Assembly (NCBI RefSeq): GCF_018502385.1
Contig: NZ_CP075523.1
Location: 930,001 to 994,000 of the forward strand
Direction of reading: 5' to 3'
Origin: Synechococcus sp. LA31
GTDB lineage: Bacteria; Cyanobacteriota; Cyanobacteriia; PCC-6307; Cyanobiaceae
DNA: 64,000 nucleotides
Part shown: positions 27,705 through 30,745 of the stretch, one piece after another
How the letters are laid out: each line of letters begins with the position of its first letter
Position numbering within the stretch: position 1 is the stretch's first letter
Notes under the pieces: model-generated
The model's input: the letters and a program-made list of their open reading frames with translations, nothing else
Told to the model about the DNA's origin: nothing
The model's database searches: none
Program-made: the position numbers and the translations under genes

Positions 27705-28116
27705 TTCTGACGCCTTGGTGTTCGTGTACGGCAGCCTCAAACGCCACATGGCCAACCACCGTGAACTACAGGGTGCTGCCTGGCTCTGCGAGGCCCGCAT
27801 AGAGGGCTTAACGCTGCACGACCTGGGCCCCTTCCCCATGGCGATCCGCAGCAGCGAAGCAGGCTGCACGATTACTGGTGAGGTCTACCGGGTGGGCCCG
27901 AAGCTCCTCGCGCACTTGGACCGCTTCGAAGGCGTGCCGAGGCTCTACGAGCGGCAGCTTCACCATCTGACCGATGGCATCGAGGCGTGGGTGTACGTGG
28001 GCCACGCGCGGCAGGTGCGTCACAGCCGCCGAATCGCATCAGGGGTGTGGAACGGTCCCGGAAACCGCTTCAAACGTACAACAACACAATCTGTGAAGTC
28101 GTCAGAGGATGATTGA
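27679..28116 (+). CDS. Gamma-glutamylcyclotransferase (AIG2-like) family protein
   Basis: 145 aa. VFVYGSLKRHMANHREL is the family start with the YGSL turn, and LDRFEGVPRLYERQLHHL carries the following conserved part; the presumed catalytic Glu lies in FEGV. Such enzymes release 5-oxoproline from gamma-glutamyl peptides or amines. The basic C-terminal tail (NRFKRTTTQSVKSSEDD) is extra. It overlaps the DUF3104 gene. Confidence 0.88.
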   Translation: MERAGNSADSDALVFVYGSLKRHMANHRELQGAAWLCEARIEGLTLHDLGPFPMAIRSSEAGCTITGEVYRVGPKLLAHLDRFEGVPRLYERQLHHLTDGIEAWVYVGHARQVRHSRRIASGVWNGPGNRFKRTTTQSVKSSEDD

Positions 28117-28130
28117 CAAAGCCCTGGGAC

Positions 28131-30416
28131 ATGAGAAAGCTATGGAGAGAAGCTGTCAGCCCCATGCCCAACACCCAATTGCGCGGGAACATCGGCGATG
28201 CAGGCATGCAGATCAAACCTTCCAAGGACGTGAAATCGGTCTATAAGCTGCTCCAACAAAAGCAGAGCAAGCTTAACGATCAGGATCTACTCCTAACAAA
28301 GGATTATATCAGTGTCGCCAAAGATATCGGCATTAAAACGCTTGATAGCAAAAAGGATATTCGCAGAGCTGCCCGCTCCATTCATCAATCCGAGGAGGCA
28401 ACAGACCAGCCACAAAACCTTGTGATTTTCATCAGAGATCAGGTCAAACCAGAAGACCTATGGCTGCCGCGCAATTGGGCCAAGGAGAACCTGCCCACAC
28501 GGCAATGGCTACTCGACAATGGCCTCTCATTCGAAAACTCCTTCACCAATACGGCGATGTGCTCGTCGGCGAGGGCGACTTTCTTTACAGGCAAATATCC
28601 AGCTCAGCACGAGCTTGACCTGCTGTTGAGCGATATAGAGAATCCAATTCTAGATTCTGAGGTTCAGCTGAATCCAGACCTACCAACACTCGGCACGGTT
28701 CTGGGTGACCTCGGTTATGACGTGTCATTCTTTGGCAAGACACATCTCAGCAAAACATTCACGACGGTTGACGACGAAGTCGTCTACCAGGACATGACTG
28801 AGTACGACTTTGAGGGCTGGCAAGGCCCCGATGCCGGGCAAGACATGGATCCGAAGAACGCTGGCGGCGGCTATGCCGATAACGACACGCGTTTCATCAG
28901 CGAAGCAACAAGCTGGCTCGATAACCGAATCAACTCTGGCAACACGAAACCGTTTGCCATGGTGGTGTCTCTTGTCAACCCGCACGACGTGCTCTCATAC
29001 CCACTCAGCTGGGGTGAAGGAGATCCAGAGACCTATTTTGGCTACTCGGAAGACATCATCGAAGGAGATATCAACATCCTACCGCCAACAGTGGATGAAC
29101 CGATCAGAGGATCAATGAGTGCTAACGGGTACGACTTTTCAGGCAACTACAAACCACAGATTCAGCGAGAGTGGCTGCTTGCTCAAGCGGGAGGGCAACC
29201 ACTTCCTACCGACGAGCTGAAGCTCAACTATCTAAATTTCTACGGTAATCTGATGAAGATTGCCGACAGTCAGATGGGAGAAGTAATCAATACACTTGCC
29301 AAGCAAGGCGAAGTCAACAATACGATGTTTGTAAGCACTGCCGACCATGGCGAGATGGGGATGTCTCACGGCGGCATGGTGCAGAAGATGTTCAACGCCT
29401 ATGAGGAGTCGATCCGGGTGCCCATGATCTGGTCCAATCCTCGTTATTTCAAAGGTGGGCAGAAATCGAAAGCACTAGTCTCGCTGGTCGATTTTCTGCC
29501 AACCGTAGCCAACTTCTACGGATCCAGCGAGGATCAGATCAACAATTATCAGCTGAGTGGCGTCGACTACTCATCCATTCTGAAGCGAGCATCCAGACGA
29601 TCAAAACTCGATCATGAAGCCAAGGATGTTCAGTCGTCTGTTCTCTACACATACGACGATATTTATGCAGGGCAAGACCCTCGCAACTCCATCCCCCAAG
29701 GAGCCTGGGACCACGGACTCCTACCAGGCCCCAACAGACTGCAGGCCGTGCGCACCAAAGACTTTAAGTACGCTAGATATTACTCAGAAGACAAGACTTA
29801 CGAACCCAAGAACTGGCAAGGGGAGCTTTATGACTTGCGCCCTGGTGGCGGCGACTACTACCCAAACATCGATCCGATTACAGGACAACTGAACCCCTTC
29901 AAAGCAGCTCCACTAGAGCTGAAGAATCTGGATCCAAAGGCAGAAGCCTTACGGGTGCTGCAAGGCGAAGAACCCATTGCAACGAGGCGACAGAAAAGGG
30001 CGTACAAACAGATGTCCAACCTGCTGGACAGCGAGATCAACGAGAAACTCCAACCGCTGTTGCCGCAAGAATCCAAGGAGCCAACCTTCTTCCGCTATCG
30101 CGGCGGTTCATCCCAGAATTCAGCCTACGACTTGGGAGATCCGATCATCAGGCTGATTCCAGCTACCAACGGCAGCCAGAATCTTGAAGTGGCGTTCAAC
30201 ACAAGGGCAGGACAGAGCTACAACATCGTGTCGATCGAACAAGCACTCAACAACGGCGCCGTGACGATTCAGGACACAGGCACGCTTCTCTCGAACATTG
30301 TTGGAACCAATGGCCCCACATACCACTACCTAACAGGACTCTCGGGCGATCTCAGCCTCGCGAATTTTGCCATTGAATGGATTGGCGGCTATGTGCCACT
30401 GGAGACGATCGGATGA
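28131..30416 (+). CDS. Sulfatase-like hydrolase with non-canonical FGly motif
   Basis: 761 aa from ATG 28131 (a TTG at 28113 is also open). The alkaline-phosphatase-fold metal motifs are present: FIRDQVKPEDLWLP, STADHGEMGMSHGG. The formylglycine site reads MCSSARATFFTG with Cys144, where sulfatases have C-x-P/A-x-R; Ser replaces the Pro. Extra parts are an N-terminal helical region (residues 25-90) and a C-terminal beta-rich domain of about 90 residues. Base composition is visibly less GC-rich than the neighbours, suggesting transfer. Substrate unknown. Confidence 0.88.
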   Translation: MRKLWREAVSPMPNTQLRGNIGDAGMQIKPSKDVKSVYKLLQQKQSKLNDQDLLLTKDYISVAKDIGIKTLDSKKDIRRAARSIHQSEEATDQPQNLVIFIRDQVKPEDLWLPRNWAKENLPTRQWLLDNGLSFENSFTNTAMCSSARATFFTGKYPAQHELDLLLSDIENPILDSEVQLNPDLPTLGTVLGDLGYDVSFFGKTHLSKTFTTVDDEVVYQDMTEYDFEGWQGPDAGQDMDPKNAGGGYADNDTRFISEATSWLDNRINSGNTKPFAMVVSLVNPHDVLSYPLSWGEGDPETYFGYSEDIIEGDINILPPTVDEPIRGSMSANGYDFSGNYKPQIQREWLLAQAGGQPLPTDELKLNYLNFYGNLMKIADSQMGEVINTLAKQGEVNNTMFVSTADHGEMGMSHGGMVQKMFNAYEESIRVPMIWSNPRYFKGGQKSKALVSLVDFLPTVANFYGSSEDQINNYQLSGVDYSSILKRASRRSKLDHEAKDVQSSVLYTYDDIYAGQDPRNSIPQGAWDHGLLPGPNRLQAVRTKDFKYARYYSEDKTYEPKNWQGELYDLRPGGGDYYPNIDPITGQLNPFKAAPLELKNLDPKAEALRVLQGEEPIATRRQKRAYKQMSNLLDSEINEKLQPLLPQESKEPTFFRYRGGSSQNSAYDLGDPIIRLIPATNGSQNLEVAFNTRAGQSYNIVSIEQALNNGAVTIQDTGTLLSNIVGTNGPTYHYLTGLSGDLSLANFAIEWIGGYVPLETIG

Positions 30417-30745
30417 GCGGAGAGGAACAACTCAGGCAGTTCATCACACGATCCAAACAAGATCCTGTGATCAGCCAAGAATTAGCCGATTGCGCCGTTG
30501 AGAAATGGGGAGATGCCCATTTACCCCTGGACATTGATCTCAACAAGGTGATTCAGCTAGCCGACCGGTATGGCTATCGCTTCGATCGCTCAGATGTGAT
30601 CCGCAGTCAATGCCAGCACCTACAGGAGTTTTCCCTGTTCGAAATGAACAATGCATTTGTCGCGAGGCGCTACCTGGCAAGAATTCAATGCACAGTTGAA
30701 CCAGCCAGCACACGCTGGGCTGCGATCGACTACTACCGGAGCTAG
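30413..30745 (+). CDS. Nif11-domain protein paired with the sulfatase
   Basis: 110 aa from ATG 30413, overlapping the sulfatase stop by four bases. EEQLRQFITRSKQDPVISQELADC and VIQLADRYGYRFDRSDVI have the helical layout of the Nif11 domain. No GG leader-cleavage motif and no core peptide is seen; instead a conserved-looking C-terminal part (FEMNNAFVARRYLARIQC, TRWAAIDYYRS) follows. This argues against a peptide natural-product precursor and for a partner or modifier of the sulfatase. Confidence 0.75.
   Translation: MSGEEQLRQFITRSKQDPVISQELADCAVEKWGDAHLPLDIDLNKVIQLADRYGYRFDRSDVIRSQCQHLQEFSLFEMNNAFVARRYLARIQCTVEPASTRWAAIDYYRS

Follow-up and report, generated by a model that had tools for sequence, protein, structure and literature searches.

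In some picocyanobacteria, a sulfatase whose maturation site has lost its Pro is encoded next to a small Nif11-fold protein, and this pairing is conserved across genomes. We tentatively propose that the Nif11-fold protein serves this non-canonical sulfatase as a dedicated accessory factor in maturation or assembly and that the two genes form a mobile cassette, a reading of which we are somewhat less than confident. It is a standing question how organisms with neither FGE nor anSME activate their Cys-type sulfatases, and the pair provides a testable lead. The window (the whole 64,000-nucleotide stretch of Synechococcus sp. LA31 DNA that was analyzed) contains the following features.

28131-30416, + strand: S1-type sulfatase gene, 761 amino acids (Pfam Sulfatase, Foldseek)
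28437-28442, + strand: metal-site Asp-Gln, residues 103-104; invariant in the 28-row alignment and in the clade
28560-28574, + strand: maturation-site pentapeptide Cys-Ser-Ser-Ala-Arg, residues 144-148; Pro absent in 14 of 14 readable clade members
29343-29354, + strand: metal-site Asp-His-Gly-Glu, residues 405-408; D405, H406, and G407 invariant in the 28-row alignment
30413-30416, + strand: ATGA stop/start overlap of the sulfatase and Nif11 genes
30413-30745, + strand: Nif11-fold partner gene, 110 amino acids; inserted WGxxHxPxDxD loop and conserved C-terminal half

The sulfatase (for which a TTG start at 28113 is also possible) matches Pfam Sulfatase, PF00884, at 120 bits against a cut-off of 25, and the Foldseek matches of its model are S1 sulfatases, among them a porphyran sulfatase (E 2.6e-21), which places it in the alkaline-phosphatase-superfamily fold. 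With the formylglycine-dependent S1 sulfatases (SulfAtlas S1; choline sulfatase, porphyran, and GAG sulfatases) it shares the common fold, PF00884, the active-site Cys and Arg, and the metal residues. The catalytic residues are intact, as neither the 28-row alignment nor the readable clade members vary at C144, R148, D103, Q104, K203, H205, D405, H406, or K419. Unlike those enzymes, the window sulfatase has no Pro at the third pentapeptide position, has a Nif11 partner, and has no recognized Sec or Tat signal. Such a signal was recognized in none of the clade members; the N-terminus of the sulfatase is weakly hydrophobic, and a related enzyme, L048, has a weak Tat match. The initial annotation had correctly read the core metal motifs as intact (DQ at 103-104 and DHGE at 405-408 are present, with DQ and DH invariant in the clade) and the formylglycine site as CSSAR, with Ser at the Pro/Ala position (codons 144-148). 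Of the extra domains that it had described, the C-terminal beta domain (about residues 670-756) is well predicted and stands, whereas the N-terminal helical part (residues 1-90) is a low-confidence prediction (pLDDT about 33-52) that is not conserved across the clade. Neither the sulfatase nor the Nif11-fold protein matched a PADLOC defense-system model, and an anti-phage defense system was rejected for this reason.

With Ser at its third position, the pentapeptide of the window sulfatase does not fit the (C/S)-x-(P/A)-x-R maturation motif. In SulfAtlas, this position is Pro in 87%, Ala in 369 of 4058, and any other residue in <1% each (PMC5066984). Among the 14 readable clade members, the pentapeptide is CSSAR in 10, CSSSR in G150, CTAAR in G069, and CSVAR in two (G139 and G632), with Ser the commonest residue at the Pro position and Ala and Val also occurring. 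The sulfatase of G514 ends at a contig edge, so its pentapeptide is unreadable and lies outside these 14; a PF00884 match on G514 contig C72, in which no sulfatase motif is seen, probably does not supply the remainder. G106 has a tandem arrangement in which the additional, divergent sulfatase copy (L042:3897-6017) also ends at a contig edge, with its site unreadable. Relatives in Verrucomicrobia, Acidobacteria, Actinobacteria, Chloroflexi, and Planctomycetes have CSPSR, CTPSR, CSPAR, and similar pentapeptides, with one CSASR. The cyanobacterial clade is monophyletic (SH-aLRT 100) and adjoins a Verrucomicrobia set with CTPSR or CSPSR. By comparison of these sequences, the Pro is lost in all 14 readable cyanobacterial members, while relatives are nearly all C-x-P-x-R.

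The window genome (G000) is a single contig, 100% complete, in which the window sulfatase is the sole PF00884 protein. The initial annotation had suggested looking for an FGE or anSME; with a true FGE defined by its catalytic Cys pair (C-x4-C motif), profile and motif searches of G000 found neither an FGE with this pair nor an anSME. One FGE-family match in G000 was rejected as EgtB (482 bits against a cut-off of 360) and a second because the catalytic Cys pair is absent. A single protein matched the anSME model, at 157 bits where the cut-off is 349; it scores 611 bits as GrrM and was therefore rejected as a sulfatase maturase. This radical SAM maturase is found with GrrP in a cyclophane RiPP system outside the window (L182:1429-4031). 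G150 (99% complete) looks similar to G000, as its only sulfatase is a Pro-less clade member (CSSSR) and the searches revealed no Cys-pair FGE in it. It contains a two-domain FGE-like protein without the Cys pair, a second, partial FGE-family match of the same size as EgtB in G000, and an anSME-model match below the cut-off. A true FGE is present in nine of the 15 carriers of the sulfatase clade (G004, G069, G106, G547, G587, G600, G606, G624, and G655). Ordinary FGE processing is therefore possible in these nine, which counts against an accessory role for the Nif11-fold protein. The other sulfatases in the genomes with FGE, which mostly lie near the FGE gene, have CAPTR, CSPTR, CTAGR, or CTPSR; those near a true FGE mostly retain Pro or Ala, with an unreadable motif at two loci. 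The anSME search covered the earlier carrier genomes, with nine later genomes outside it. Known pairs of a sulfatase with FGE or anSME are alike in that a sulfatase gene has a small set of dedicated neighbors, but the partner here is neither an FGE nor a radical SAM protein.

On its own, the partner protein scores slightly below the Pfam Nif11 cut-off (22.3 versus 23.8 bits). The domain call is sound because all eight aligned orthologues match Nif11 (best E=5.5e-11), and the protein matches the solved Nif11 protein 9zn4 by sequence. The Nif11 domain occupies the N-terminal half, as it does in Nif11 leader peptides (prochlorosins and other Nif11 RiPP precursors). In contrast to these leaders, the partner has the inserted loop and the conserved C-terminal half, belongs to a conserved unit that lacks a maturase, and, as the initial annotation had noted, has no GG-type cleavage site in the translation of 30413-30745. 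Across 14 Nif11 proteins, 22 residues are invariant, and the majority lie beyond the plain Nif11 core; these 22 include W32, G33, H36, P38, D40, and D42 in the inserted loop and Q66, C67, L70, F73, E77, M78, N80, V83, R86, and Q92 in the C-terminal half. The structure model (mean pLDDT 70, from four sequences) is a helical bundle in which two long C-terminal helices join the Nif11 helices, and a structure search with this model gave no convincing match. Pairwise dN/dS values are mostly 0.06-0.2, rising to 0.43 against G069, where synonymous distances are large; by this measure, purifying selection acts on the Nif11 frame, and the sulfatase values are similar (0.08-0.2). No relative of the Nif11 protein was found in the viral contigs searched, and the neighborhoods of the other Nif11 genes in G000 have no common pattern.

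When the Nif11 alignment was searched against 400 sampled genomes of the family (threshold 1e-8), 14 carriers of the subfamily were found, each at ≥137 bits; the next Nif11 matches, from smaller samples and a looser threshold, score at most about 26 bits. The same 400 genomes contain 15 carriers of the sulfatase clade, separated by score and coverage from a next group that scores ≤110 bits. The sulfatase is present in 14 of 14 Nif11 carriers and the Nif11 gene in 14 of 15 sulfatase carriers; the hypergeometric value for this co-occurrence (6e-25) is naive, as it ignores relatedness and linkage, and is not readable as a probability. The two genes are adjacent in every pair, 12 co-directional and two convergent (G069 and G632), and therefore the link survives rearrangement. 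They are co-inherited. The distance matrices of the two proteins are correlated (Mantel r 0.89, p 1e-4), which is partly expected from shared descent. Between G000 and G587 (L277), the Nif11 proteins are only 55% identical and the sulfatases 84%. Outside the family, the Nif11 subfamily is absent from a 386-genome sample of the phylum. The overlap by ATGA, the stable pairing, and the undescribed two-gene system that had been suggested from the window alone are all upheld, with the adjacent pair conserved in 14 genomes and no description in literature naming both Nif11 and sulfatase, in a search that left subscription journals mostly uncovered. G139 is the only carrier with a sulfatase (CSVAR) and no Nif11 gene; this genome is 78% complete, and both flanks of the gene are present. 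The Nif11 gene is not strictly required, because G139 has a Pro-less sulfatase without this neighbor, and this also counts against an accessory role. The G139 sulfatase (L041:7350-10028) carries C-terminal RTX calcium-binding repeats.

In the reading that we tentatively prefer, the two genes would form a picocyanobacterial cassette, mobile by horizontal transfer, in which a sulfatase without a Sec or Tat signal and with a Pro-less maturation site, C-[ST]-[SAV]-[AS]-R, is made beside its dedicated Nif11-fold accessory protein. This protein would most likely bind the new or unfinished sulfatase and aid it in reaching its active form; we infer both the physical binding and the help in maturation. 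It may hold the active-site segment while a non-canonical route turns the Cys into formylglycine; alternatively, it may aid the folding and metal loading of the sulfatase. Two further points count against an accessory role: Nif11-fold proteins are not known to have enzymatic activity, and linked transfer of neighboring genes also yields co-occurrence.

The Nif11-fold protein could instead be a chaperone, stabilizer, or export adaptor that takes no part in Cys chemistry, with formylglycine made by FGE or, elsewhere, by a general E. coli-like system. We regard this as possible but doubtful. It is consistent with the lack of a recognized Sec or Tat signal in the clade, alongside the weak Tat match of the related L048, and with the presence in G139, the lone carrier without Nif11, of RTX repeats instead. 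Such repeats are typical of type I secretion, and their occurrence in place of Nif11 is a hint, from a single case, of export. PMC6189696 cites an unidentified E. coli machinery that converts Cys. However, the RTX/Nif11 swap is one case in a 78% complete genome, and a role of this kind leaves the clade-wide Pro loss unexplained.

It is unlikely that the active-site Cys stays unmodified and acts as a direct, slow nucleophile, perhaps on another ester, with the Nif11-fold protein as a regulator or subunit. Neither FGE nor anSME was found in G000, nor FGE in G150, the Cys is invariant despite the Pro loss, and PMC6189696 supplies a precedent in a multiple-turnover unmodified choline sulfatase; the same text describes sulfatases without the modification as slow, however, and the full set of catalytic residues of formylglycine sulfatases, Arg148 included, is retained here. 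A third activation system for Cys-type sulfatases has been proposed from E. coli (cited in PMC6189696). That the Nif11-fold protein is an essential part of a third maturation route, one that would need neither FGE nor anSME to act at C-x-[SAV]-x-R sites lacking the Pro, perhaps through the invariant His36, Asp40/42, Cys67, and Glu77, seems quite improbable.

The conserved unit consists of the two genes only, and because the flanks differ among genomes and GC content falls from 64.8% in the window flanks to 51.6% in the genes themselves, the pair looks horizontally acquired in the window. Its GC content, 13 points under that of the flanks, suggests a recent acquisition; little difference is seen in G600, G606, G624, G547, and G655. 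These values, and the patchy distribution of the pair among the 400 family genomes, would also fit two genes that travel together merely as neighbors on a transferred segment, without joint action. We consider this very unlikely, as adjacency is maintained down to about 40% sulfatase identity and through two orientation changes, no Nif11 carrier among the 400 genomes lacks the sulfatase, and both genes are under purifying selection. We know of no sulfatase that serves as a RiPP enzyme, and it is scarcely credible that the Nif11 gene encodes an ordinary RiPP precursor that neighbors the sulfatase or is modified by it. Although the literature presents Nif11 domains mainly as leaders of modified peptides (PMC2887384 and PMC10783134), this idea was rejected because a conserved C-terminal half does not fit a leader followed by a variable core; the missing GG site, the conserved unit without a maturase, and the variable flanks also oppose it.

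The pair points to the Nif11-fold protein as an enzyme accessory and not a RiPP leader. In a complete cyanobacterial genome with a Pro-less sole sulfatase, no detected maturase, and a dedicated partner, the question of activation becomes testable with two genes. An RluD-type pseudouridine synthase encoded outside the window in the same genome (L004:520-1734) carries a C-terminal Nif11 fusion (residues 328-377), a further case of this domain joined to an enzyme.
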